Shown in pieces: positions 22,313 to 60,492 of a DNA stretch of 64,000 bases. Position 1 is the stretch's first letter. Every line of letters starts with the position of its first letter. Source of the stretch: Arcobacter sp. CECT 8983 (GTDB taxonomy: Bacteria; Campylobacterota; Campylobacteria; Campylobacterales; Arcobacteraceae). The stretch lies in NCBI RefSeq assembly GCF_004118855.1, contig NZ_PDKF01000008.1:1-64000 (forward strand), in the 5' to 3' direction. Below the pieces are notes generated by a model. The model was not told the DNA's origin. It did no database searches and worked only from the letters and a program-made list of their open reading frames with translations. A program made the position numbers and the translations under genes.

Positions 22313-22339
22313 TAGAAGAGGGAGTTTATTCCTCTTCTA
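22313..22339 (-). terminator. hairpin at the end of the imelysin/diheme operon
   Basis: TAGAAGAGG (22313-22321) and CCTCTTCTA (22331-22339) pair perfectly around a 9-base loop that contains the stop codon of the last gene. There is no strong T run after it on the minus strand. Confidence 0.5.
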
Positions 22340-23483
22340 GTAGGTGTTCGTATCTTTTGTCAGTTAAAAGTTTCATAAATGCAACTAAGGCATCTATTTT
22401 TCTATCATTTTGTTTTTTTGCTTTTAAATCCTCTAAGGAAATAGTCTCTTCTACTTCAGGTTCTGCCCAAGGTTTTCCTGTTTCTGGATTTATTGTTCTT
22501 TCTTTATTATTATATTTATCATAAAATTCAACTACAGTTCTTAAATCTTTAAATACACCATTGTGCATATATGGAGCAGTAACTGCTACATTTCTTAAAG
22601 TAGGAACTTTGTGTTTACCTAAATGTTTTTTATCAGTAACTTTTGGATTTGCTAATAAGCCTTTATCAATATCTTTTACACCATTTTTAGCTCTTAATTC
22701 ATGATTAATAGGTGTTCCTATATTGTGATACTCATAGTTTGTAAATGTTTCACCCTCTGAATCTTCTGGTTTATTTAAGTGGCAGTTGGCACAAGAGTTA
22801 TTTGCATTTGAGAAAAATAGTGATCTTCCTAAATCCTCTAATGGAGTTAAATCATATTCCCCTCTTAAAAATCTATCATATTTTGAATCAAAAGGTGCAA
22901 ATTCTTTTGTTTGTTCAAATTTTTCAATTGAATCAGTCATTGCAGTATAAGCTTTTTCATTTGATAAGAAAATATCTTCCCCATAAATTGTCTTAAATGT
23001 TTCTAAATAATAAGGGTTCTCTTTAAGTCTATCTACAACAGCTTTTTTAGATGGCATTCCCATTTCAATTGGATTTGTAGGAGGACCTCCTGCTTGTCCT
23101 GCTAAAGTATCTTCTCTTCCATCCCAGAATTGACCACCAATATATTGCTTGCTTTCTTTATCATAATGAAACTTTGGGCTAAACATTGCATATGCTGCAC
23201 TTGGTGCTTGTCTATCGCCTAGAGATTTGTTGTTGTCCCCAAGAGATGCCATGGCTTTTATTCCATTGTCTCTATCATCGGTAAAACCTCTATTAGGATT
23301 GTGACAAGTAGCACAAGCTTGTGTTCTATTTTTAGATAAGTTTTTATCAAAGAATAAGACTTTTCCTAATTGTTCTTTTTGTTTTATTTTTTGTTCTAAC
23401 TCTTCTTTTGATAAAGTAGAGTTTGTACAACCAGCAACAAGTAAAGCAGTCGTTGCTAGGGCAACTAGATTTAAATATTTCAT
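22326..23483 (-). CDS. diheme cytochrome c peroxidase/MauG-family lipoprotein
   Basis: The 385-residue protein has a lipoprotein signal (LLVAGC, Cys19) and two heme c sites, CATCH near residue 57 and CANCH near 232, in the order expected for the CCP/MauG family, plus APYMHNGVFKDLRTVVEFY near the C-terminus. The family reduces hydrogen peroxide or oxidises protein-bound substrates in the periplasm. It is the fifth gene of a Fur-boxed operon with two imelysins, a DUF1111 diheme protein and a membrane hydroxylase, and overlaps the hydroxylase gene by one base. Confidence 0.88.
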   Translation of the reverse strand: MKYLNLVALATTALLVAGCTNSTLSKEELEQKIKQKEQLGKVLFFDKNLSKNRTQACATCHNPNRGFTDDRDNGIKAMASLGDNNKSLGDRQAPSAAYAMFSPKFHYDKESKQYIGGQFWDGREDTLAGQAGGPPTNPIEMGMPSKKAVVDRLKENPYYLETFKTIYGEDIFLSNEKAYTAMTDSIEKFEQTKEFAPFDSKYDRFLRGEYDLTPLEDLGRSLFFSNANNSCANCHLNKPEDSEGETFTNYEYHNIGTPINHELRAKNGVKDIDKGLLANPKVTDKKHLGKHKVPTLRNVAVTAPYMHNGVFKDLRTVVEFYDKYNNKERTINPETGKPWAEPEVEETISLEDLKAKKQNDRKIDALVAFMKLLTDKRYEHLLEEE

Positions 23484-24385
23484 TAACTTCTCCTTCTTAA
23501 AATATTTATAAATGGTAATAGTAATAAGTTTTTTATTGAGTTATACTCTTTCATTTGCTCTTTTCTAAGTCCAAATTTTAAAACTTTAACTTCCTGTGAA
23601 AGTTTTAATGTTCCAAAAACTCTATCCCAAACACTCAAATATCCACCATAATTTTTATCAAAAAAGTTTTTACTATGATGTATTTGATGTTGTTTTGGTG
23701 AAATAAGCCATTTTTCTAAAAAAGTAAAATATCCAAGAGGAATATGTGAATGTCTTAAGTTTGAACCTAAAAAAGAAAAAAGAAATACAAAAGCATTAGC
23801 CCCAATTATTTCTACAGTTCCAATTTTTGAACCAAAAAAATACAGAAATACTCCAGTTGTAAGTCCTATACTAAAAGAGTATCGAAAACCAAAAAGAATA
23901 TTCTCTATTGGGTGAACTCTATAAAAAGTTAGAGGATTTAAAACTTTTGCACTATGATGTATCTTATGAAACTCCCATAAAAAAGGAATAGTATGAAGAA
24001 ATCTATGAAGCCAATATCTTGTAAAGTCACTTATAATAAAAAGTGTAATAGTGTACATAATAATTACTACTTCATAAGAAAGAGTATTTATATGATTAAA
24101 TCCAAACTCTAAATAAAGAAGTTTTCTTATATATAATGCAACACTATTTGCGCTAATTACTATTGGAAAAATTATTGCAACTTTAATAATATATGAAAGA
24201 ATAAAATAGTAATAATCAAGCTTAGCACTTGGGTGTAGCCATAAAGCTTTAGATATATTAGTTCTTATATATTTTTTATTAAAGTATAAATAAATCATTG
24301 CAATAGCAATTGAAGAGATAATATAAACCCAGAAAGTTCTCTTATCTGGGTTTATTAAATACTCAAAGAGTAAAAGGTCATTCAC
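23483..24385 (-). CDS. sterol desaturase/fatty acid hydroxylase-family diiron membrane protein
   Basis: This 300-residue membrane protein has the histidine boxes of the family: HRFLH, HKIHH and HQIHH, with several membrane segments. These ligate a diiron centre that hydroxylates or desaturates lipids using oxygen. It is embedded in an iron-regulated operon: two bases after an imelysin gene and overlapping the diheme peroxidase gene. Its lipid substrate is unknown. A link with the peroxidase as electron partner is possible, not shown. Confidence 0.85.
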   Translation of the reverse strand: MNDLLLFEYLINPDKRTFWVYIISSIAIAMIYLYFNKKYIRTNISKALWLHPSAKLDYYYFILSYIIKVAIIFPIVISANSVALYIRKLLYLEFGFNHINTLSYEVVIIMYTITLFIISDFTRYWLHRFLHTIPFLWEFHKIHHSAKVLNPLTFYRVHPIENILFGFRYSFSIGLTTGVFLYFFGSKIGTVEIIGANAFVFLFSFLGSNLRHSHIPLGYFTFLEKWLISPKQHQIHHSKNFFDKNYGGYLSVWDRVFGTLKLSQEVKVLKFGLRKEQMKEYNSIKNLLLLPFINILRRRS

Positions 24386-24387
24386 TT

Positions 24388-25371
24388 TTAGTCACCATCT
24401 GCATCAATTATTTTTGCATTTATTGAAAGTTCTTCAATTAAGTCTAAAAAAAGAACAACATGAATTGTATTTGTTACTTCATAAAGCTCTTTTGCATCTT
24501 TAAAATCATCATCTTTAATCTTATCATTTAATGAGATTGCTTTTGTAATAGAGTCTCTTAAAACATCAACTTGTTTATTATGAGTTAAATCTTTAAGATA
24601 ATCTCCATAGTCATAATAATTTTCGCTGTTAAAAATATTTTTATATGTATTTAAAATAGCAGCAATAGCTAAAGAAGAGTTCTTACTAATAAAATATTCA
24701 CCTCTTTTATTATCAAAGTTGTCTTTATATTTTTTGCTAGTACCTAAAATATCTCCAACTCTCCACTCTTTTAGTTTATATGTATTTTGAATTAATCTAT
24801 TGATTAAAATTCCATTTGCTTTTTTTAAATCACTTAGAAAAGTTTTATGTAAGGCTTTATACTCATTATTGATATCTTCAAGGTAAGACTTAATTCTTTT
24901 TACAATAGTAAGAGTTAGTTCATTTACTCTTTTATTTTTAATATCTTTTTTATATAAAACATACTCTAATGCATTTATTGATTTAAGTGAGTTTTTAAAT
25001 AGAGCAATTCTTGGTTCATCGTTACTTTTTATAGCTCGGTCTAATTGTATTTTTATATCTTCATTTCCATGATGATAAATATCAATTAATCTTGGAGTAT
25101 CAATATAATCTTCATTTAAATCACCTAAAATGTAAACTGATTGAACACTTTTCCATGATGTAACAAGGTTTTTAAACTCTTTTTTTGCATTTTCTATATT
25201 TTTATTAGTAATCTCTTTTTCTAAAGCTTTAATATCTTCTAAAACTTTTTGTGAATCTTTTAATATCACTTGTTCATAGATATTGTTTAATGCTTTTTTA
25301 TTTTTGTCAACCGCTGCATTTGAGATAGTAACTAAACAAAGTATTGTTAGAACTATTTTTAATATTTTCAT
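24388..25371 (-). CDS. imelysin-family periplasmic protein (second copy, GxHxxE motif lost)
   Basis: The 327-residue product has a signal peptide (MKILKIVLTILCLVTISNA) and the all-helical imelysin layout with SWKSVQSVYILGDLNEDYIDTPRLIDIYHHG. The family's GxHxxE motif is replaced by INALEY near residue 134, so the histidine ligand is absent. Family members (EfeO M75, ICMP, IrpA) take part in periplasmic iron uptake. It lies one base from the DUF1111 gene. It may have become a partner subunit of the complete imelysin encoded two genes upstream. Confidence 0.82.
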   Translation of the reverse strand: MKILKIVLTILCLVTISNAAVDKNKKALNNIYEQVILKDSQKVLEDIKALEKEITNKNIENAKKEFKNLVTSWKSVQSVYILGDLNEDYIDTPRLIDIYHHGNEDIKIQLDRAIKSNDEPRIALFKNSLKSINALEYVLYKKDIKNKRVNELTLTIVKRIKSYLEDINNEYKALHKTFLSDLKKANGILINRLIQNTYKLKEWRVGDILGTSKKYKDNFDNKRGEYFISKNSSLAIAAILNTYKNIFNSENYYDYGDYLKDLTHNKQVDVLRDSITKAISLNDKIKDDDFKDAKELYEVTNTIHVVLFLDLIEELSINAKIIDADGD

Positions 25372-25372
25372 T

Positions 25373-26773
25373 TTATAACCTTTCTAAAAATTGTAGTAAT
25401 TCTTTTCTTTTTTCTTTTTGTAAGTTCATGAACGCTTCTTTCGAAGTTTCTGCTTCTCCACCATGCCAAAGTATTGCTTCTTGGAAGGTTCTTGCTCTTC
25501 CATCATGTAATAATCTTGGCTTTTTGCCATTAATCTTTTCATGCAAACTTAAACCCCATAGAGCAGGTGTTTTCCATTCACTACCACTTGCATTAAACTC
25601 TGTTCTTCCATCTGCTAAACCCTCTCCCATGTCATGCAATAATAGGTCAGTAAATGGTGAAATATTTATACCACTTTTTGTAGTAAATGAATCTTTATGA
25701 CAATCTGCACAACCAATAGATTTAAAAAGTTTTAATCCTTTTTTATATAAATCATCTTTTGGAGCAGTATATGTTTGTCTTTTCTTTATATAAAAATCAA
25801 TTGCATGTAGTCTATTGTCTGGTAAGTCTATTTTATGTCTAGCTTTTGGAACTTTTTTGCAAGCTATTTGTTTATCTGTACATCTATCTTCTGTAAAAAT
25901 TGTAGTTGTTAAACCCATATCATTTATAGCTGCATCTGCTGTTTGATGTACTAGTGATGTATTATTTGCTTTCCAAGAATATTTACCTATTTCTTTTTTC
26001 TTTGTAATAGGAGAGTAGGCATAATTAACACGTCCAGAAATTCCATCTTTATTTTTATCAAATTCATCTGCATTTGCTAATATTTGTTCATCCGGAATAT
26101 CTTCTATTAGTCCTAAACCATTTAAAGAGGGTGCAATTCTAAATGTTATAATAGTATCTTTGTGTAATTCTCCATATTGTAAATCATTTAATACATAAGT
26201 AGGTTTTAAAATAGTATCAACTTCACCATCTGGAAACTTCACTTTAAGTTCTTCAAATTTTATTTCTGGTTTTGCTTCAAACTTTACATCAAGTGTACCA
26301 TTTATTGCAATTTGACCACCATAAGTTGGTTCAGGAATTAAGGGATTTGTTTTTAAAAACTCTAACTCTTCTTTTAAGCCTTTTGAAGGAATTGATAGTT
26401 TAGGAATAACAGATCTTGATAAACTACCATCTTCATTGTATAAATTACCTCTACCATTACTTGGGTGACAACTATTACAGGTATTTGCATTAAATAAAGG
26501 ACCTAATCCATCCCTAGCTGTAGTAGCACTTGGAGCTTCAACCCAAGGAATTCTAAAAAAACTTTTTCCTAAAATAAATTTATCGTACTCTTCATTTGAT
26601 AAAGAATTTACAGGCTTTAGTAAGGTTTTTTTATTTTGGCTATGAGTTATTTCTGAACTATTAGCTAAAACCGCAAAAAGCCCAATAGCAAAAAGTGCTA
26701 CGAGGCTTTTATTTATAAGGGTTTTATTAATTGATTTGAAATTATAGTTTTGTTTCTTCTGGATCTGTAACAT
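25373..26773 (-). CDS. DUF1111 diheme thiol-oxidoreductase-like protein
   Basis: The 466-residue protein has a membrane or signal segment near 25-42 and two heme c sites, CNSCH near residue 101 and CADCH near 356, with family marks such as GRVNYAYSPI, TPALWGLSLHEKI and RTFQEAILWHGGEA. DUF1111 proteins usually accompany imelysins in iron-regulated operons; the reaction is unknown, perhaps redox handling of iron before transport. Its 5' end overlaps the preceding imelysin gene by 32 bases, so the exact start could be later, but co-translation is likely. Confidence 0.86.
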   Translation of the reverse strand: MLQIQKKQNYNFKSINKTLINKSLVALFAIGLFAVLANSSEITHSQNKKTLLKPVNSLSNEEYDKFILGKSFFRIPWVEAPSATTARDGLGPLFNANTCNSCHPSNGRGNLYNEDGSLSRSVIPKLSIPSKGLKEELEFLKTNPLIPEPTYGGQIAINGTLDVKFEAKPEIKFEELKVKFPDGEVDTILKPTYVLNDLQYGELHKDTIITFRIAPSLNGLGLIEDIPDEQILANADEFDKNKDGISGRVNYAYSPITKKKEIGKYSWKANNTSLVHQTADAAINDMGLTTTIFTEDRCTDKQIACKKVPKARHKIDLPDNRLHAIDFYIKKRQTYTAPKDDLYKKGLKLFKSIGCADCHKDSFTTKSGINISPFTDLLLHDMGEGLADGRTEFNASGSEWKTPALWGLSLHEKINGKKPRLLHDGRARTFQEAILWHGGEAETSKEAFMNLQKEKRKELLQFLERL

Positions 26774-28082
26774 CGTCTGTACTTAAAGAGATTCCATTTG
26801 CATTTGCAATTGTAACCATTTCATCACCAAGTTTTCTCATTTGATTTTTAAGTTTTACAATAACTTTTGCCATTGGATTATCTGGCTGAATTTGGTAATC
26901 AAAGTGTTCTTTTGTTTTTGCTGTTTTATCAACTTTTGCAATTTTTTCTTCAATAGATGACATTAAAGCAGTAATTCTAGCTTTGTCTTCTTTTGAAACT
27001 TTATCTAATAATGATGGACCATAGTCTTTACCATTATAAGTTGATGTTAAAATATTTTTGAAACCTAAATAGTTTGTTACAATATCTCTATGTGTATTAT
27101 CAGAGAAGCAAGAGTGCTCATCTTCTTCAGATGGTGTTAATACAGCAACTGCAATTCTTTCATTTGCAAGTTCTGATTTAATAAATACACCCATACCAGC
27201 AATAACTTGTTTTAATGCTTCTTCTTTAGATAAATTTTTAGCCGCATCTTTTCCTGTTAATTTTCCTTGGAATGCTGCTTGATATAAACCATCTTTATTC
27301 CAAGCTGAAGTAACAGTTTCTAAATCAGAAACAATTTTTTGTGCAGAAGCTTTTAAGTAAGCTAATCTTCTTGGTGCATTTACATCTGAAGTAAAATCAG
27401 AAAGTGGTCTTTGTCCCGCTGTTAATGGACCATGAGTAATTGAATCTTTTACAAAGTTAGAGTAATCTTGATCTTGTCCCCATAATAAAAACTCAACAGC
27501 GTGATATCCAGTAGATACATTTGCTTCTCCACCATTTTCATTTAATGCAGTTAAAGCATCAACTGTAATAGAACTTACATCAACTGTTGATGAATCTTCT
27601 CCACCTGGATTAAACTTACCTTTTGTATCAATGATATTTCCAGCAGTTCTTTTACCATTTGCATCAATAGTATAGTCAATCATATTTTCATCTAGTGGCC
27701 AAGCATTTAATTGCCCTTCTAATGCACCATATTTTTCTGCTACCCAACCTTCTTCTGCATCAATTGGACCATTTGAAAGTCTAAAAATTTCAGTTTGTCC
27801 ATAAGACTCTCTAGAAACTAACCAAGCATCTTTTGCTGCTAGTAAATTTTTTTCTGTAGGATTTGCTGCAAATTTATTAATAGCATTTTGTAATGCTTTT
27901 GCATCTTGAAGTGCATCATTGTAGTTATCATGTGCAATCATTGCATAAGCACTTAAAACATCACCTTTTTCTATGTTGTGGTGTGAATGTACTTTTGAAT
28001 CTGAATTTGAAGCTGCACAACCAGCGAATGCTAGTGCTGCTGCAAAACTAATACTTGCTGCTAATAATTTTGTTTTGTTCAT
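26742..28082 (-). CDS. imelysin-family lipoprotein (ICMP/IrpA-like)
   Basis: The 446-residue product has a lipoprotein signal ending in LAFAGC (Cys22) and the complete imelysin signature GYHAVEFLLWGQD (GxHxxE near residue 207). A second conserved block is ERIAVAVLTPSEEDEHSCFSDNTHRD. Such proteins bind iron in the periplasm and are needed for growth on low iron in several bacteria. It is the first gene of the operon with the DUF1111 protein, a second imelysin, a hydroxylase and a diheme peroxidase, and has two Fur boxes just upstream. Confidence 0.9.
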   Translation of the reverse strand: MNKTKLLAASISFAAALAFAGCAASNSDSKVHSHHNIEKGDVLSAYAMIAHDNYNDALQDAKALQNAINKFAANPTEKNLLAAKDAWLVSRESYGQTEIFRLSNGPIDAEEGWVAEKYGALEGQLNAWPLDENMIDYTIDANGKRTAGNIIDTKGKFNPGGEDSSTVDVSSITVDALTALNENGGEANVSTGYHAVEFLLWGQDQDYSNFVKDSITHGPLTAGQRPLSDFTSDVNAPRRLAYLKASAQKIVSDLETVTSAWNKDGLYQAAFQGKLTGKDAAKNLSKEEALKQVIAGMGVFIKSELANERIAVAVLTPSEEDEHSCFSDNTHRDIVTNYLGFKNILTSTYNGKDYGPSLLDKVSKEDKARITALMSSIEEKIAKVDKTAKTKEHFDYQIQPDNPMAKVIVKLKNQMRKLGDEMVTIANANGISLSTDDVTDPEETKL

Positions 28083-28105
28083 ATTTTTCCTTTTAGTTTT
28101 CTAAG

Positions 28106-28120
28106 TGATAGTCGTTATCA
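28106..28120. promoter_or_regulatory. Fur box upstream of the imelysin operon
   Basis: TGATAGTCGTTATCA, 7-1-7 form, lies 24 bases before the imelysin start on the minus strand. Confidence 0.75.
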
Positions 28121-28168
28121 AATAATAAGAGTATTCTAAATGAATCACACTTAAATCATACTTAATAT

Positions 28169-28183
28169 TGATAGTCTTTATCA
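28169..28183. promoter_or_regulatory. second Fur box upstream of the imelysin operon
   Basis: TGATAGTCTTTATCA differs from the neighbouring box at only one base and lies 48 bases further upstream, directly behind the stop codon of the preceding gene. Confidence 0.73.
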
Positions 28184-28186
28184 GTA

Positions 28187-28576
28187 TTATAGATTATTAA
28201 TATATTTTCTAATTGTGTTTATAAGTTCATCATTAATTGATTTCATATCAATTTCATCTTTATAGCATTCGTATTCTTCTAAAATAAAAATATAGTTATT
28301 TAATGTATTAATTAACTTGATTTCATTAGTTAGTAATACTAATTTTGAAATAATAGATCTAATAACTACTTTTTTTTCTGCTAAGTTTTCACAAGACATT
28401 GTAACAATCTCATCACTTAATATAGAAAAGGTATTAAGCTTTTTTTCTCTTAACCATTTTTTTCTATCTTGCTTTTGAGAAATTTTTGAACTAATTACTG
28501 AATCAATTAACTTTGTGGCAATTGTTCCAACTAATGCATTGCTTGCAAGAGTGTTTATAGCAGGTAGTGCAATCAT
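28187..28576 (-). CDS. 129-residue protein of unknown function behind Fur boxes
   Basis: The product is predicted helical. An N-terminal apolar stretch (MIALPAINTLASNALVGTIATKLIDSVI) is followed by a basic segment (SQKQDRKKWLREKK) and long amphipathic helices. I recognise no family. It is transcribed toward the imelysin operon, with a Fur box directly upstream (28592-28606), so iron-controlled expression is likely. It may be co-transcribed with the imelysin genes or separate, since Fur boxes lie on both sides. Confidence 0.65.
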   Translation of the reverse strand: MIALPAINTLASNALVGTIATKLIDSVISSKISQKQDRKKWLREKKLNTFSILSDEIVTMSCENLAEKKVVIRSIISKLVLLTNEIKLINTLNNYIFILEEYECYKDEIDMKSINDELINTIRKYINNL

Positions 28577-28591
28577 TTTTTATCCTTTACT

Positions 28592-28606
28592 TGATAATAG
28601 CTATCA
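28592..28606. promoter_or_regulatory. Fur box between the 129-residue gene and fur
   Basis: TGATAATAGCTATCA, 7-1-7 form, extended to TTGATA/TATCAA inverted ends. It is 15 bases before the start of the minus-strand gene. Confidence 0.77.
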
Positions 28607-28643
28607 AAATTATAAGAGAAGAAGTCTTAAAAGGAGTTTAAAA

Positions 28644-28658
28644 TGATAATTACTATCA
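28644..28658. promoter_or_regulatory. Fur box in the divergent fur region
   Basis: TGATAATTACTATCA lies within a longer inverted repeat with perfect AATGATA/TATCATT ends (28642-28660), 59 bases before the 40-codon ORF on the plus strand. Confidence 0.78.
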
Positions 28659-28693
28659 TTAATATTAAATTAAGAATATTTACATTAGTATTT

Positions 28694-28708
28694 TGATACT
28701 GATTATTA
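28694..28708. promoter_or_regulatory. weaker Fur-like site before the 40-codon ORF and fur
   Basis: TGATACTGATTATTA fits the 7-1-7 form except for one base in the right half. It lies 9 bases before the small ORF. With the two boxes upstream it suggests that fur is self-regulated. Confidence 0.5.
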
Positions 28709-28717
28709 AGGTTGAAA

Positions 28718-28842: not shown

Positions 28843-29292
28843 ATGAATACTAAACATGGAATGACATTCGATGCATTTTTAAAAAACTTCAAACTACATG
28901 TATCAAAACTTGGATTTAAAAACTCAATTCAAAAAGATTATATTTTAAAAATTCTTTTTTATTCAGAGGAACACTTAACGGCTGAACAAATAGCTTTTAA
29001 AGTAAAAGAAGAATATAACATTGATGTGGGAATTGCAACAGTTTACAGAACAGTTAAGTTTTTTGAAGATTTAAATATTCTTGATAGTTTAGATGTTGGA
29101 GATAGTGTAAAAAGATATGAGCTTAAAATTTCAGAACATCATGACCACTTAGTTTGTACCTCTTGCCATAAAATTATTGAGTTTTCTGATGACACAATTG
29201 AAGAAAAACAAGAATCAATTGCAAAAGATAATAATTTTATTTTAAAAGACCATGCAATGATAATTTATGGCTTGTGTGAAGATTGCCAATAA
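28843..29292 (+). CDS. fur: ferric uptake regulator Fur
   Basis: The 149-residue regulator has the winged-helix start (SIQKDYILKILFYSEEHLTAEQIAFKVKEEY...IGIATVYRTVKFFEDL-like), the HHDHLVCTSCHKIIEF metal-binding stretch and a final CEDC pair. It represses iron-uptake genes when loaded with ferrous iron. Its position beside the imelysin operon and multiple Fur-type sites makes it the iron regulator rather than the second Fur-family protein at 59 kb, which is adjacent to zinc genes. Confidence 0.9.
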   Translation: MNTKHGMTFDAFLKNFKLHVSKLGFKNSIQKDYILKILFYSEEHLTAEQIAFKVKEEYNIDVGIATVYRTVKFFEDLNILDSLDVGDSVKRYELKISEHHDHLVCTSCHKIIEFSDDTIEEKQESIAKDNNFILKDHAMIIYGLCEDCQ

Positions 29293-29371
29293 AAGAGTTT
29301 CTCCTTTTTTAACAAAGAATCTTTAACTTCTCTTTTTCTTTATTTTATAAATTAATAAAAATAAAATTTGT

Positions 29372-29407
29372 TGATAGTGATTCTAAATTTATAATAAGTT
29401 ATTATTA
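29372..29407 (+). promoter_or_regulatory. possible operator region of the P1B-ATPase cluster
   Basis: TGATAGTGATTCTAA (29372-29386) matches a left Fur half-site, and TAATAA-GTTA-TTATTA (29392-29407) is a perfect inverted repeat. Both lie just before a TACAAT box and the first gene of the cluster. The match to Fur is partial, so iron control is plausible but not certain. Confidence 0.4.
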
Positions 29408-29441: not shown

Positions 29442-29756
29442 ATGATAAGTACTGAAGATATTATTAAAATAGCTAGCTATTTTACTGTTATAGCTCATAC
29501 TCCTGGAAGATTAAGAGTAAGAGTAAATCCAAAAATTAAAAATGAAAGTGGAAATATCACTTTAGAGGATATAGAAAACTTACCAGAAAAGATTGATGGA
29601 ATAAACAGTATTAAAGTTAAAAAAATAATAGCTTCTGTAACTATTACTTATGATCCTTCTGTTTTTCCTCCTAGTCTATGGGATGATTTAATAGCAAATA
29701 GAAACCTAAATGAAATCACAGAGCTAATAAATAGTTTAGCAAAGGAGGTTGTGTAA
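29442..29756 (+). CDS. HMA2-like small protein, first gene of the P1B-ATPase cluster
   Basis: The 104-residue product has the HTPGRLRVRV start and DGINSIKVKKIIASVTITYD strands of a heavy-metal-associated-like (HMA2) ferredoxin fold, but no CxxC metal motif. A short N-terminal helix (TEDIIKIASYFTVIA) and a C-terminal helix flank it. The cluster's P-type ATPase begins with a similar fold (HQTNLRVRY), so the two may interact or share a role in substrate delivery. It is followed without a gap by the ferritin-like gene. Confidence 0.75.
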   Translation: MISTEDIIKIASYFTVIAHTPGRLRVRVNPKIKNESGNITLEDIENLPEKIDGINSIKVKKIIASVTITYDPSVFPPSLWDDLIANRNLNEITELINSLAKEVV

Positions 29757-30434
29757 TTGGCAGCAAATTTAGATGAGGCTTTATTAATAAGCCAGAGAAT
29801 AGATGTAAATGATCCTCAACCAATAGTTTCTCAAGCACTTAGAATAGCAATTTATGATGAATGTAAAGCATATGAAGCATATGTAAGAATAATTGAGAAA
29901 TTTGGTTTAGTTCAACCTTTTGTGCATATAAAAGAATCTGAAGCTAGGCACTATCAAGCTTTAATCTTTTTATTACAAAAATATAATGTAGAGGTACCAA
30001 TTAACGATTGGCATTTAAAGATTGAAGCACCAAATAGTTTTATTGAAGCTTGTGAATTAGGCGTGGCAAGTGAAATTCAAAATATTGCTATGTATGATAA
30101 TCTTTTAACTCATGTTCAAGAAGCAGATATAAGAGATGTTTTTTATCAACTACAGGCTCATTCTTATAATAACCATTTGCCAGCTTTTAGAAACTGTATT
30201 TTAAATCATTATACAGTAGCAAATGATGTTCAAGGTTTTAATCAAGAACAAATAATGGAAAAAATTGGTGAGTATCAAATGATATTAGAAGATATGCTAA
30301 ATGGAAATATGGATGAAGCAAAATTGACAAATCTATTTTCTAAGTTAAATCTTTCAATGCTTTCAGGAGCAGCACTAGGCGCAGCTGGTGTTGCATTTTT
30401 TAATGACTATATGAATAAAAAAGATAAGGAGTAA
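29757..30434 (+). CDS. ferritin-like protein with C-terminal membrane tail
   Basis: Translation begins at TTG (29757), directly after the preceding stop and 9 bases behind a strong AAAGGAGG site. The 225-residue product is a four-helix DUF2202/ferritin-like domain. The first carboxylate-histidine set is present (E35, E62-x-x-H65), but the second helix pair reads SYNNHLPAF where an acidic ligand is usual, so the diiron site may be incomplete. A glycine-alanine apolar segment (LSMLSGAALGAAGVAFF, about 198-214) could anchor it in a membrane. This is unusual for ferritin-like proteins and suits a membrane-bound iron compartment. Confidence 0.75.
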   Translation: MAANLDEALLISQRIDVNDPQPIVSQALRIAIYDECKAYEAYVRIIEKFGLVQPFVHIKESEARHYQALIFLLQKYNVEVPINDWHLKIEAPNSFIEACELGVASEIQNIAMYDNLLTHVQEADIRDVFYQLQAHSYNNHLPAFRNCILNHYTVANDVQGFNQEQIMEKIGEYQMILEDMLNGNMDEAKLTNLFSKLNLSMLSGAALGAAGVAFFNDYMNKKDKE

Positions 30435-30437
30435 GTC

Positions 30438-30695
30438 ATGGCTTTACCATTTGTAGTAGGATTAGCAGTAGGAGCAGGGGCAGTATATGCTTTTACAAAA
30501 TCAGATAAGTTAAAAGAAAAAGCAACTTCAATATTTTCAAAATCAAAAGACGTAGCTAATACTTCAATTGAAAAAAGTAAAGAAACTGTTGATGAGGTAA
30601 AAGATACAATCAATGCAACAGCAGCATGCATAAAAGAGAAAAAAGAACAACAAAAACAAGAAAATAATAAAGAAAAAAAAGAGGACTCTAAATAA
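30438..30695 (+). CDS. small YtxH-like single-span protein
   Basis: The 85-residue product has an N-terminal glycine-rich apolar segment (VVGLAVGAGAVYAFTKS), then a long charged helix with KEKATSIFSKSKDVANTSIEKSKETVDEVKDTI and a Lys/Glu tail. This resembles YtxH-type and gas-vesicle-associated helical proteins that sit on membranes. It begins 3 bases after the ferritin-like gene and overlaps the next start by one base, so the cluster is translated as a unit. Confidence 0.75.
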   Translation: MALPFVVGLAVGAGAVYAFTKSDKLKEKATSIFSKSKDVANTSIEKSKETVDEVKDTINATAACIKEKKEQQKQENNKEKKEDSK

Positions 30696-31057
30696 TGAAT
30701 CAACCTTTAATTAATAATCCATCAAATCCTATTTTAAGAAGTGTAATAACTGGAGCAATTGCTTCAGCTGTTGCATCAAGCACTATTAATATGAGAAAAG
30801 TTAAAAATCAAGAGATTAGTAAAAAAGAAGCACTAAGAGATACTTTTAAAAGAACATCTCAAGGAGCAATTGCAACGGGAGCTGCTGTCGCTACTGCTGA
30901 TTATCTATCTCAAAAGGGTGGATTTATAAAAGCAATGACAACTATCTCTGTTGGAATGGCAGGAATTTATGCATTAGAAGTTTTAGATGATAAACTAAAT
31001 AAATGTGATGAAAAAGAGTGTTGCGAAGATGTTACTTTAATTGCAAAGGAGCAATAG
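30695..31057 (+). CDS. glycine/alanine-rich membrane protein with C-terminal Cys pair
   Basis: The 120-residue product carries two small-residue apolar segments (SVITGAIASAVASSTI and GAIATGAAVATADYL) separated by a charged linker, a third near FIKAMTTISVGMAGIYAL, and a C-terminal CDEKECCED motif with three cysteines among acidic residues. The apolar helices look suited to tight packing or membrane curvature; the Cys-acid patch may bind iron. I do not recognise a family. It abuts the next gene with no gap. Confidence 0.7.
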   Translation: MNQPLINNPSNPILRSVITGAIASAVASSTINMRKVKNQEISKKEALRDTFKRTSQGAIATGAAVATADYLSQKGGFIKAMTTISVGMAGIYALEVLDDKLNKCDEKECCEDVTLIAKEQ

Positions 31058-31456
31058 ATGAATCAAAATGGAAATCAAAACCCACAAAATATGAATATAA
31101 ACCAAAATCAAATGAATAATATGAATCAACAAAATATGTATGATCCAAATATTGATAATACAAGAGTTGGAGCAACTGCTTCAATGAATATAAATCAAAA
31201 TCCATATATAAATCAAAATCAACAGTTTTCAAATGCACAACAAAATCCTCAAAATCAAGGTATGTTTAATAATGCTGATTTTGTAAAGGGTGCTTTAGTT
31301 GGAGCAGCTGTAACTTTCCTTTTAACAAATAAAGGTGCTCAAGAAACTATTATGAAAGCAGCTTCAAAGGGAACTGAACTTTTTCAAGCAGGAATGGAAG
31401 AGTTAAAAGAGCGATATGAAGATGCAAAAGCTCAAATGGAAGCAAACCAAGAATAA
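31058..31456 (+). CDS. Asn/Gln-rich prion-like protein with a membrane span
   Basis: About the first 75 of 132 residues are dominated by Asn and Gln with interspersed Met, Pro and Tyr, a prion-like low-complexity domain. One apolar segment follows (ADFVKGALVGAAVTFLLTNK, about 76-95), then an amphipathic charged helix. Such domains can self-assemble or form condensates. In a putative iron-granule cluster it could scaffold the compartment; this is inference. It lies between a glycine-rich protein and the P1B ATPase. Confidence 0.75.
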   Translation: MNQNGNQNPQNMNINQNQMNNMNQQNMYDPNIDNTRVGATASMNINQNPYINQNQQFSNAQQNPQNQGMFNNADFVKGALVGAAVTFLLTNKGAQETIMKAASKGTELFQAGMEELKERYEDAKAQMEANQE

Positions 31457-31461
31457 TAGCT

Positions 31462-33579
31462 ATGAGTAATAACTATAAAATAGTACACCAAACTAACTTA
31501 CGGGTTAGATATAAATATTCTTTATTAGATGATAAATATATTGATGAAAATATATTAAAAAAAGATTTAGAGAAGTTAGAAGGTGTAGAAAGTGTAAGAG
31601 TTAATAAAGTAGCAAAAAGTGTTGTAGTTAACTTCACTGACTCTAAAGTTTTAGAAGCTGTAGAAAAGAGACTTAAAGATTTAACCCTTGATGATTTATT
31701 AGAATCTTGTAAAAATGAAGCAGTGTGTGTTTCTTGTGTTAGTAATGAAGATCCTAGCATAAAAGGAATAGTGAGAGCTAGTTCTGCTTTACTTGCAGAA
31801 AGACTTACAAAAAATAGTTTAATCAAAGCTACTGTTTCTTCTGTTGCTGCTGCACCTTTATTACTTGAAGGAAGTAAAGAACTTTTTGAAGAAGGTCTTA
31901 CTTCAAAGGTATTAGAAAGTGCAGCAGTTGGTATCTCTTTATATAGAAAAGATTATTTAGCTGCAAACTCTACAAACGCAATGTTAGAGTTAGGTGAATA
32001 TATTGAAGAAACAACAGTACATAAAAGTGATGATTTATTAAAAGAGCTTTCTAAGCCAAATGTTGAAGAAGCTTGGATTGAAAAAGAAGTTGACGGAAAA
32101 ATCACAGAAGTTTTAGTTAAAAGTAGTGAGATTAAAACTGGTGATGTTGTAGTTGTAGGAGTTGGAAATACAATTGCAGTTGATGGTCATATTTTAGATG
32201 GAAGTGCAAGTGTAAATGAAGTTTCAATGACTGGTGAAGCTGAACCTGTTACTAAAAGAAGAGGGGATAGAGTTATTTCTGGAACTATCATTGAAGATGG
32301 TAGATTAAGAATTTGGGCTGAATATGTAGGGGCAGATACAGCAACACAAAGAATCAAGCACTATATAGAAAACTCATTGAATGAAAAGTCTTCTGTTCAA
32401 TTAAAAGCTACAAAATTAGCTGACAAATTAGTTCCTGTAACTCTTGGACTTGCTGGTACTTCATATGTTTTAACAAAAGATTTTGAAAGAACAGCTTCTA
32501 TTTTACAAGCTGATTACTCTTGTGCTTTAAAACTTGCAACTCCTGTAGCTTTTAAAACAACTATTTCAAAAGCAGGACATAGTGGTATTATGATTAAAGG
32601 TGCAAAATCTATTGAATCTTTAAGTAGCGCTGATACCTTTGTTTTTGATAAAACTGGAACTTTAACTGAAGGAGAACTTGAAGTTATCTCAGTTGAGTCA
32701 TATGATGATGAGTGGACTGAAGAAGATGTTTTAAATCTTACTGCTTCAACAGAAGAACACTATTTCCATCCTGTTGCTGAAGCTGTTGTAAAAGCTGCAA
32801 AAGAAAAAGGGTTTGTACATATGCACCATGAAGAAGTTGAATTTATTGTTGCCCATGGTGTAAAAACAGAAGTTGATGGAAAACAAGTAGTTATTGGAAG
32901 TAGGCATTTTTTAGAAGATGATGAAAAAATTAATTTTGGTAAAGCTAAAACAAGAATTCAGAAATCCTTAGACAAAGGAGAAACACTTCTTTACATAGGT
33001 TTTGATGGAAAACTTTTAGGAACAATCTCTTTAGCGGATAATTTAAGAAAAAATACTAAATCTTCTATACAAAAATTAAGAGAACTTGGTGTTAAAAATA
33101 TTGTAATGCTAACAGGAGATACTAAGAAAAAAGCTTCGATGATAGCCCAAGAGCTTGATATTGATGAGGTAAGAGCAGAACTTTTACCAACTGATAAAGC
33201 TAAAATTGTAAAAGAGCTTATGGATGAAGGTAGAAAAGTTGCATTTGTTGGAGATGGAATAAATGATGCTCCAGCATTAATCTCTTCTCATGTTGGTATA
33301 TCAATGAGTAGGGGAGCAGATATTGCAAAAGCAACAGCAGATGTAAGTTTATTAAAAGATGATATATCAGCAGTTGTAGAAGCTAAAGAGTTAGCAAATA
33401 ACACAATGAAATTAATTAACAATAACTTCAATGCAACAGTAGGAATAAATTCAGCTATTTTAGCAGGAGCTACTTTTGGATTGTTTTCTCCTATACAAAC
33501 AGCAGTACTACATAATGGTACTACTATAGGTTTACTTCTAAACTCAATTAGAGGTGTAAAAGTAAATAAATTAAAGTAG
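31462..33579 (+). CDS. P1B-type ATPase with SCA motif, FezB/P1B-6-like
   Basis: The 705-residue pump has the full P-type engine: TGEAEP (257-262), phosphorylated D396 in DKTGT, HP (436-437), GDGINDAP (597-604). An N-terminal HMA-like fold lacks CxxC, but CVSC lies at 89-92. The usual CPC transport motif is YSCALKLATP (352-361), with no proline after the cysteine-bearing turn. The first membrane pairs are short and poor in apolar residues. These traits, and the small membrane genes in front, resemble the P1B-6 ATPases (FezB) that load iron into ferrosomes. That assignment is from memory of the family and is not proven. Confidence 0.8.
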   Translation: MSNNYKIVHQTNLRVRYKYSLLDDKYIDENILKKDLEKLEGVESVRVNKVAKSVVVNFTDSKVLEAVEKRLKDLTLDDLLESCKNEAVCVSCVSNEDPSIKGIVRASSALLAERLTKNSLIKATVSSVAAAPLLLEGSKELFEEGLTSKVLESAAVGISLYRKDYLAANSTNAMLELGEYIEETTVHKSDDLLKELSKPNVEEAWIEKEVDGKITEVLVKSSEIKTGDVVVVGVGNTIAVDGHILDGSASVNEVSMTGEAEPVTKRRGDRVISGTIIEDGRLRIWAEYVGADTATQRIKHYIENSLNEKSSVQLKATKLADKLVPVTLGLAGTSYVLTKDFERTASILQADYSCALKLATPVAFKTTISKAGHSGIMIKGAKSIESLSSADTFVFDKTGTLTEGELEVISVESYDDEWTEEDVLNLTASTEEHYFHPVAEAVVKAAKEKGFVHMHHEEVEFIVAHGVKTEVDGKQVVIGSRHFLEDDEKINFGKAKTRIQKSLDKGETLLYIGFDGKLLGTISLADNLRKNTKSSIQKLRELGVKNIVMLTGDTKKKASMIAQELDIDEVRAELLPTDKAKIVKELMDEGRKVAFVGDGINDAPALISSHVGISMSRGADIAKATADVSLLKDDISAVVEAKELANNTMKLINNNFNATVGINSAILAGATFGLFSPIQTAVLHNGTTIGLLLNSIRGVKVNKLK

Positions 33580-33598
33580 AAGAAAATTCTTCTACTTT
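33573..33598. terminator. strong bidirectional hairpin after the P1B ATPase
   Basis: AAAGTAGAAGAA (33573-33584) and TTCTTCTACTTT (33587-33598) form a perfect 12-bp stem that includes the ATPase stop codon. It separates the plus-strand cluster from the converging minus-strand gene. Confidence 0.75.
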
Positions 33599-58975: not shown

Positions 58976-59350
58976 TTAATTTCCTTTTTTTAAACAATTT
59001 GGGCAGATACCCTTTATAACAATATTATCTATTTTATATCCTACTAAATTGAAAAATGGGCTTTCATGAATACACTCTATTTTTGAACAACTAGTACAAA
59101 TAAAGTGTGAATGCTCACTTTTTTGAAACTCAAAATATCTTTTTCTATCATTTGATTCGAAAGAAGTAATAATATTTTGATCTTCGAAAATAGAAATATT
59201 TCTATAAAATGTAGCTTTATCCATTTTTAATTCATCTTTTATGTCTTCATAACATAGCGGACGTTTAGTATTAATAAGTATTTCTAGAATTGCTCTTCTA
59301 GCTGTTGTTAATTTTACATTAGATTTGTTAGCTATTTTTTCTATGTTCAT
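58976..59350 (-). CDS. Fur-family regulator, probable Zur
   Basis: The 124-residue regulator has the winged helix (KSNVKLTTARRAILEILINTKRPL, DKATFYRNISIFEDQNII) and two structural CxxC pairs (CTSC near residue 86, CPNC near 118), with HSHFICTSC as the metal-binding stretch. It is divergent from znuA, and two copies of a TGCAAC palindrome lie between them, so a zinc regulator is the best reading. It is distinct from the iron regulator at 28.8 kb. nhaA follows in the same transcript. Confidence 0.85.
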   Translation of the reverse strand: MNIEKIANKSNVKLTTARRAILEILINTKRPLCYEDIKDELKMDKATFYRNISIFEDQNIITSFESNDRKRYFEFQKSEHSHFICTSCSKIECIHESPFFNLVGYKIDNIVIKGICPNCLKKGN

Positions 59351-59404
59351 CTTTTCATTATATCTTATTTGTTTTAAATTTTCTATACTTAAAAAGCTAA
59401 AAAA

Positions 59405-59419
59405 TACAACTAAGTTGCA
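59405..59419. promoter_or_regulatory. Zur-type operator, copy 1
   Basis: TACAACTAAGTTGCA is an inverted repeat of TGCAAC with a three-base centre and one mismatch in the left arm. It lies 55 bases from the Zur-like start, on the side of the divergent promoter region nearer the regulator. Confidence 0.6.
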
Positions 59420-59453
59420 TAAAAGTTTTTATATACTAATATTTCAAATAAAA

Positions 59454-59468
59454 TGCAACTGGGTTGCA
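59454..59468. promoter_or_regulatory. Zur-type operator, copy 2
   Basis: TGCAACTGGGTTGCA has perfect six-base inverted arms with a three-base centre, 49 bases from copy 1 and 22 bases before the znuA start. The duplicated palindrome in the divergent region indicates control of both genes. Confidence 0.68.
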
Positions 59469-59490
59469 AATAGTATCACAAAGGTAAAAA

Positions 59491-60492
59491 ATGAAAAATA
59501 TTTTTATAGCTTTTTTTGCATTGTCTGCAATATTGTTAGCTAAAGAAGTTACTGTAAGTATAGTTCCTCAGGAATTTTTTGTAAAGAAAATAGCAGGAGA
59601 TAAGGTAAATGTAAATGTTATGGTTAAGCCAGGAGCTTCTCCTGCTACTTATGAACCAAAAGTATCACAAATGAAAAGATTAGCACAGTCAGAAATTTAT
59701 TTTGCAATTGGCGTTCCTTTTGAAAATGCTTGGTTAGAAAAGTTTGAGAATGCAAATAAAAGTATGAAAATTGTTGATACTTCAGAAGGCATTGAAAAAT
59801 TAGAAATGCAAGCTCATTCTCACCATGACCATGATGAGCATTTATCTAAGCATGAAGAAAATGGGAATACTCATCACGACCATGAAGATGAACATGCACA
59901 CCATGACCACGATAAAGATGAACATGAACATGCACACCATGACCATGAAGAGCATGATCATGATGGACATAAAGAAGAATCAGAGCACCATGGACATGAA
60001 CATACAGGACTTGACCCTCATATTTGGTTAGAACCGACATTAGTTAAAAATCAAGCAAAAATTATCTATAGAGAATTAGTTAAAATAGACCCAGAAAATG
60101 AAGAGTTTTATAAAAAAAATTTACAAACTTTCTTAGTAGAGTTAGAGTCTTTAGATGCTCAGATAAAAGCTATTTTGAAAAAATATGAGCATAAGGCATT
60201 TATGGTATTCCACCCATCATGGGGATATTTTGCTAAAAAGTATCATTTAGAGCAAATAGCAATTGAAATTGAAGGGAAAGAACCAAAACCTTCTCAATTA
60301 GTTGAGCTAATTGAAGAAGCAAAAAAACATGATATAAAAGTTGTATTTGTAGCTCCACAGTTTTCTAAAAAAGGTGCAAAAACTATATCAAGTACTATTA
60401 AAGCAAATGTAGTTACAATTGACCCATTATCAAAAAACTGGGATAAAAATCTATTAAAAGTAGCAAAAGAAATTGCAAACTCTTATAAATAA
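59491..60492 (+). CDS. znuA: zinc-binding protein ZnuA
   Basis: The 333-residue periplasmic protein has a signal peptide (MKNIFIAFFALSAILLA), the cluster A-I solute-binding layout (VKPGASPATYEPKVSQMKRL, GLDPHIWLEP, FHPSWGYFAKKY), and a His/Asp/Glu-rich loop at about 112-170 with some thirty histidines. Such a loop is typical of ZnuA and points to zinc rather than manganese. The permease and ATPase genes are at 6.3-7.9 kb. A DUF1007-NicO gene follows with a 20-base overlap. Confidence 0.93.
   Translation: MKNIFIAFFALSAILLAKEVTVSIVPQEFFVKKIAGDKVNVNVMVKPGASPATYEPKVSQMKRLAQSEIYFAIGVPFENAWLEKFENANKSMKIVDTSEGIEKLEMQAHSHHDHDEHLSKHEENGNTHHDHEDEHAHHDHDKDEHEHAHHDHEEHDHDGHKEESEHHGHEHTGLDPHIWLEPTLVKNQAKIIYRELVKIDPENEEFYKKNLQTFLVELESLDAQIKAILKKYEHKAFMVFHPSWGYFAKKYHLEQIAIEIEGKEPKPSQLVELIEEAKKHDIKVVFVAPQFSKKGAKTISSTIKANVVTIDPLSKNWDKNLLKVAKEIANSYK

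Follow-up and report, generated by a model that had tools for sequence, protein, structure and literature searches.

A predicted Fez-type operon of Arcobacter combines a P1B-6-type ATPase with MamC-like and membrane-tethered ferritin-like proteins

What is built by a compact operon that sets a heavy-metal ATPase beside several small glycine-rich membrane proteins and a ferritin-like protein? We asked this of Arcobacter sp. CECT 8983 (GCF_004118855.1, a 2.74-Mb assembly), in which a window of 64,000 nucleotides (the whole stretch analyzed; contig NZ_PDKF01000008.1, positions 1 to 64,000) carries six co-directional open reading frames at 29442-33579 on the + strand (Table 1). An initial annotation of this DNA had described them as a tight cluster adjoining fur that begins with a gene for an HMA2-like protein, and had proposed that they form a candidate Fez-type (ferrosome-like) locus. 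All six open reading frames lie at the coordinates it gave, with successive gaps of 0, 3, -1, 0 and 5 bases; the first product does match HMA_2; and the Fez-type proposal is supported by the placement of the ATPase outside the copper and zinc clades and by a gene order that is conserved across many genera. Because it is conserved so widely, the gene set is real and not a chance arrangement. We consider it probable (roughly three chances in four) that the product of the operon is an iron-regulated organelle of the ferrosome type that is loaded with Fe(II).

The ATPase, hereinafter FezB, is a P1B-type heavy-metal ATPase (TIGR01525 match). As had been noticed in the initial annotation, YSCALKLATP stands in place of CPC: transmembrane helix 4 (TM4) reads DYSCALKLATP, and helix 6 (TM6) reads LHNGTT. 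The HN pair of TM6 is kept in 99 of 101 related sequences and played no role in their selection; because the TM4 signature was used to find loci L061-L140, its presence in those loci is in part built in. In a maximum-likelihood tree, the SCA/HN proteins (n=36) form a single group (support 100/100), with the Azospirillum ATPase as sister to the Campylobacterota group and other Shewanella species inside the SCA/HN clade. The outgroups were E. coli CopA and ZntA, a Nia-like ATPase of S. meliloti pSymA (taken as Nia from its TPC motif and long C-terminal tail), a second pSymA ATPase with CPC, and the three CPC ATPases of the Arcobacter genome; FezB thus lies outside the copper and zinc P1B clades and apart from P1B-5 Nia, in a tree whose outgroups include no cobalt-type (P1B-4) reference. 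The membrane pairs, previously called thin, are indeed so, with a mean hydropathy over the best eight segments of 1.22 versus 1.9-2.1 in CopA, ZntA and the genome's own CPC ATPases; for the membrane helices of a Shewanella member of the clade the mean is 1.31. An AlphaFold model has helices where the eight membrane spans are expected, and structurally it comes closest to copper and zinc P1B ATPases. The FezB N-terminus is a non-thiol HMA-like module with H9, R14 and R16 invariant across 30 FezB sequences, and the separate HMA2 protein has AHTPGRLRVR at the place where CxxC is expected. The H...R-x-R arrangement that replaces CxxC in both fits a non-thiol metal. The TM6 HN pair has been named a conserved feature of P1B6 ATPases in a study of mycobacterial CtpC (PMC9374683), and Fe(II) is listed as the P1B-6 substrate in a review (PMC7558416). 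Judged from its sequence (no CPC in TM4, HN in TM6 and a position apart from the copper and zinc clades), FezB is an ATPase of the P1B-6 class.

The same ATPase is found in Vibrio, Photobacterium, Shewanella, Ferrimonas, Kluyvera, Hafnia and Chromatiaceae, where the preceding genes encode combinations of HMA2-like, low-complexity membrane, MamC-like and YtxH-like proteins; almost every locus has a YtxH-like homolog 5′ of FezB. The Azospirillum cluster, of the same style and likewise of six genes, has only part of the small-protein set, and neither its proteins nor those of the Cereibacter cluster match MamC. A contig profile search led by a Vibrio TM4 fragment returned gammaproteobacteria and one alphaproteobacterium; S. 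putrefaciens, RS-1 and C. difficile were not among the matches of that one search, and no relatives were found on viral contigs. The accessory proteins, which had seemed unfamiliar from any described locus, are so only in part: four of the five kinds of accessory protein are also present in fez-like clusters from other phyla, and the ferritin-like gene is the real addition. The core small-protein set and the ATPase are, as predicted from these associations, a Fez-type (ferrosome) assemblage that is old and shared.

Several variations on this gene neighborhood were also recovered. Arcobacter from chicken meat carries the whole operon on plasmids of 133 kb (CP129951.1, CP134847.1), near a tyrosine recombinase; in CP134847.1, where the ATPase is annotated as two open reading frames, TonB receptors, a ChaN lipoprotein and a Tn3 transposase lie 3′ of the operon, and from this plasmid context the operon appears to be mobile. 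A second P-type ATPase (~700 amino acids) is encoded just 5′ of the cluster and in the same direction in three relatives (L178, L179, L190). In several proteobacteria, extra HMA2-like or YtxH-like proteins flank the cluster, some of them divergently encoded (L110:6974-7507, L112:7187-7570, L061:2819-3253).

The Gly/Ala-rich product of the fourth gene is supported as a distant homolog, below the equivalog level, of the magnetosome protein MamC (Mms13). MamC is matched by 31 of the 35 members of the Gly/Ala-rich protein's family (best 9e-10), with no other family recurring in more than two of them. The MamC model finds a match in five of the eight genomes or records to which named loci led, once each and inside the fez locus, and in none of 14 control genomes. 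Among 60 Campylobacterota relatives, 22 have a match (E ≤ 1e-3) at the cluster position (one of them on a separate short contig), all within the 31 genomes that possess FezB and none within the 29 that do not. Matches at E 0.0016-0.01 in some relatives were discarded as chance, being mostly to long proteins of ~1030 amino acids at 16-19 bits. A profile-profile comparison with hhalign gave 96.7% (E 3e-10, 84 collinear columns), values that are provisional because they depend on the MamC query used; the family, control-genome and relative scans are independent of that query. Both proteins have two membrane helices joined by a loop, in collinear arrangement, and E45 and D49 in the loop of the Arcobacter protein align, with the same i, i+4 spacing, with MamC Glu66 and Asp70, which have been implicated in iron binding and mineral templating (PMC6584501). 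Two Chromatiaceae members carry EALRDTGK and EALADTGK at the acidic-pair site, whereas the pair is lost in Vibrio and Shewanella members, which lack the Asp. A further difference from MamC is the presence of the MamC-like gene in fez loci of bacteria that are not known as magnetotactic. None of the papers searched connects MamC with ferrosomes. The CDEKECCED motif, by which the initial annotation had characterized this gene, is present in the window and is not kept in relatives, and we dropped it as a core feature.

The predicted ferritin-like protein with a membrane tail, encoded by the second gene, stands: it scores above the DUF2202 cut-off; its AlphaFold model (mean predicted local distance difference test score 82, >90 in the bundle) resembles ferritins, bacterioferritins and the DUF2202 protein MJ0754 (PDB 3q4n/3q4r; for 3q4r, VIA Z 16.3, root-mean-square deviation 1.9 over 131 residues, 28% identity); and its hydrophobic C-terminal tail has an invariant G204xxxG208. 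The candidate metal ligands E35, E62-x-x-H65, E106 and H140 align with the E/ExxH/E/H pattern of MJ0754; the canonical di-iron rubrerythrin set (E / ExxH / E / ExxH) is incomplete, as no Glu stands at position -3 from the final His (SYNNH), in MJ0754 likewise. Unlike MJ0754, the operon protein has the GxxxG membrane tail and is part of a FezB operon. Elsewhere in the genome are genes for a conventional ferritin and for another protein of the ferritin/Dps type, and the operon's protein is therefore an addition, not the sole ferritin. In a survey of 298 Campylobacterota genomes, 102 had FezB and 97 the ferritin-like family; 95 had both, always on one contig and 1.4-4.1 kb apart, and of the 196 that lack FezB only two gave so much as a weak ferritin-like match (Fisher 1.6e-66, a value that overstates independence, the genomes being related). 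In two Chromatiales-type metagenome-assembled genomes (L110, L120), too, fezB is immediately preceded by a gene for a tailed DUF2202 protein. Their proteins branch with free-standing, untailed DUF2202 proteins and apart from the Campylobacterota set (99/98), which suggests that the ferritin-like protein was recruited twice, separately in Campylobacterota and in Chromatiales. In nine proteins of one family, f10, the five ligand positions are occupied by E, R or K, A or G, E, and Y with the tail intact; the tether is therefore more constant than the metal site. A very divergent ferritin-like gene lacking both the ligands and the GxxxG tail was seen in two further loci (L186 and L187, of genomes G258 and G268).

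Within an organelle, the ferritin-like protein might be a rubrerythrin-like peroxide scavenger that guards the surface and not an iron loader. Free-standing DUF2202 genes adjoin catalase, feoB or peroxiredoxin genes, and 15 of 24 ferritin-like members have a rubrerythrin Pfam match; the f10 proteins, in which the gene and the tail persist without ligands, better suit a structural role. We regard the scavenger as a possible alternative with the odds somewhat against it.

Three of the operon's products, the ferritin-like protein through its tail, the 85-residue protein and the N/Q-rich protein, each have a single membrane segment with an invariant GxxxG (G8xxxG12 in the 85-residue protein; G78xxxG82 in the N/Q-rich protein, in which E115, E118 and D122 are also invariant). 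The YtxH-like label first given to the 85-residue protein belongs rather to the N/Q-rich protein, which has the best YtxH match, the former being weakly GvpT-like. The prion-like tract reported for the latter is real (N+Q 54% over 72 residues), but this composition is a Campylobacterota flavor of a disordered region: the low-complexity N-terminus is N/Q-rich in Campylobacterota and P/Y/Q-rich in gammaproteobacteria, and with relatives lacking it, prion-like composition was dropped as a core feature. In a Pfam scan of 24 partner proteins, YtxH was matched by nine and the PacL-type domains DUF1490/DUF6110 by none.

The gene for a Fur paralog, one of four Fur-family genes in the genome, ends 149 bases 5′ of the operon. 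Its orthologs (42-89% identity) are found 5′ of the cluster in ~10 Arcobacteraceae relatives; more distant Fur genes occupy that place in the f10 loci, and five relatives (L043, L045, L047, L056, L059) have an ortholog of the main Fur immediately 3′ of fezB. Fur-box-like sites (TTGATAATGATTATNA) number 47 in the window versus 22 ± 5 after shuffling (0 of 100 shuffles reach 47), and they cluster at 28106-28709 and 29371. A Fur-box-like element recurs near -70 to -80 of the first gene in most Arcobacteraceae relatives, and the summed Fur-box score over 40 upstream regions is 386 versus 351 ± 5 in shuffles. A candidate box at 29392 (TAATAAnTTATTA) is not conserved in relatives and was dropped for TTGATAATGATT. 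In C. difficile, the fez genes are Fur-repressed (PMC12574912), a link that the present operon may share. Iron control of the operon is predicted from the Fur adjacency together with the conserved, predicted Fur-box-like element. On the other side of the Fur paralog, a probable iron-acquisition run (22326-28184, - strand) is divergent from the fez side; it includes an imelysin (PF09375) gene at 26742-28082 (- strand), whose promoter has Fur-box-like sites at 28106-28184, and candidate cytochrome- or imelysin-like neighbors at 22326-26773.

Table 1. Positions in the window of the operon's genes and of the regulatory features around them.
Feature	Position	Strand	Basis
Fur-box-like sites 5′ of fur paralog	28643..28709	not set	1-3 mismatches to TTGATAATGATTATNA; inferred
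Fur-family paralog	28843..29292	+	PF01475, 113.8 bits; 47% to genome's main Fur
Fur-box-like element TTGATAGTGATTCTAA, conserved	29371..29386	+	56-71 bases 5′ of first gene
HMA2-like protein, 104 aa	29442..29756	+	PF19991, 30.2 bits (cut-off 30)
DUF2202 ferritin-like protein, 225 aa	29757..30434	+	DUF2202, 27.8 bits (cut-off 22); fold match
Short GvpT/YtxH-like membrane protein with glycine zipper and charged tail, 85 aa	30438..30695	+	GvpT, 20.8 bits (under cut-off)
MamC-like two-helix membrane protein, 120 aa	30695..31057	+	NF038051, 25 bits, E 1.7e-5 (cut-off 100)
N/Q-rich disordered N-terminus, glycine-zipper helix and YtxH-like tail, 132 aa	31058..31456	+	adjoins ATPase gene
P1B-6-type (FezB-type) ATPase, 705 aa	31462..33579	+	DYSCALKL, DKTGT, H684-N685
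Terminator-like hairpin, operon end	33573..33598	+	11 pairs; consensus scan only

Known Fez loci share with this operon a P1B-6-type ATPase with small membrane proteins, and Shewanella species have the same gene set. Six fez genes (RPA2333-2338), the same number as here, give rise to ferrosomes in R. palustris CGA009 (PMC12016538), the proven sets being compared here by description; FezA and FezB are required for ferrosomes in C. difficile (PMC12574912). The operon differs from the known loci in its extra membrane-tethered ferritin-like gene and in lacking FezC, a DUF4405-like cytochrome that D. magneticus and D. indicum possess (PMC10979944). Several points weigh against a ferrosome. FezC is absent from 29442-33579, with the genome's best DUF4405 gene unlinked on another contig, and the locus is therefore not of the RS-1 type. 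The tree does not include the experimentally proven FezB sequences (D. magneticus RS-1, S. putrefaciens, R. palustris CGA009, C. difficile). The MamC-like protein scores 25 bits versus an equivalog cut-off of 100, which none of the 60 relatives exceeds; the Fur site is a prediction in AT-rich DNA; and the ligand loss in f10 speaks against an essential ferroxidase role. Moreover, P1B-6-like pumps such as CtpC also serve as plain efflux pumps with membrane-platform partners such as PacL1 (PMC9374683). On the evidence, the cluster probably acts like a Fez locus, though not one of the RS-1 type.

The efflux pumps provide the main rival: a plasma-membrane platform for efflux of Fe(II) or other divalent metals, on which the small proteins would cluster and stabilize FezB as PacL1 does CtpC, with no vesicle. 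The P1B-6-like CtpC, with its TM6 HN, is indeed paired with a small membrane protein bearing a disordered region and encoded next to it (PMC9374683), and the YtxH-like partners here consist of one membrane helix and a charged tail. However, CtpC has CPC, the operon's partners match YtxH and not DUF1490/DUF6110, and the MamC- and ferritin-like members, which are absent from the PacL1-CtpC system, suit storage and mineral formation better than export. The conserved Fur-box-like element, moreover, suggests that iron starvation induces the operon, opposite to what efflux would call for, and organisms with six-gene fez sets make organelles (PMC12016538). We therefore judge such a platform unlikely. 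That the ATPase serves another metal (Zn, Mn, Co) in an unusual resistance operon is very improbable: the Fe(II) substrate is deduced from its class and TIGR01512 (a Cd family) scores above cut-off, but CPC, SPC and TPC are all lacking, neither HMA-like domain has CxxC, and the locus has a ferritin-like partner and a Fur linkage.

Returning to the ferrosome-type organelle, the observed gene set, its conservation, homologies, ligand pattern and conserved promoter element allow us to infer a course of events that takes in transport direction, vesicle formation, topology and mineral. Under iron shortage, the Fur paralog, the main Fur or both would derepress the operon, as the sites and gene adjacency suggest. 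The disordered YtxH-like, GvpT/YtxH-like and MamC-like proteins may then gather with FezB in a patch of the inner membrane, which the short glycine-rich helices of these small proteins could shape into vesicles. Upon the return of iron, FezB, as expected from its P1B-6 class, would pump Fe(II) from the cytosol to the lumen by way of the SCA/HN transport site and the non-thiol HMA modules. The MamC-like loop, if homology is a guide, would face the lumen and nucleate or size an iron mineral. On the cytosolic face, the GxxxG tail would tether the ferritin-like protein to the vesicle; with intact ligands it might capture or oxidize Fe(II), or remove peroxide, at the vesicle surface, and without them it may be a structural coat or tether.

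Away from the operon, at 58976-60492, a fourth Fur-family gene is divergent from a candidate periplasmic metal-binding gene (ZnuA-like by eye) and perhaps encodes a zinc regulator.

Two features of the operon go beyond what we found described, namely the association of a tethered DUF2202 protein with FezB and the MamC homology of the Gly/Ala-rich protein, and it is these that would surprise a specialist. We tentatively propose, at a little under even odds, that ferrosomes and magnetosomes share an ancestral MamC-like templating subunit, and that the Campylobacterota ferrosome variant is coated by a tethered ferritin-like protein, uniting in a single machine the two known ways in which bacteria store iron, ferritin and the lipid-bounded granule, with a coat that is purely structural in one family. 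If so, membrane-bounded iron organelles would reach across Campylobacterota, where roughly one in three genomes of the sample has this FezB; tethering of the ferritin-like protein would couple ferritin chemistry to an organelle surface in a new way; and the MamC link would be a part common to ferrosomes and magnetosomes, and with it a testable hypothesis for how the ferrosome mineral is nucleated.

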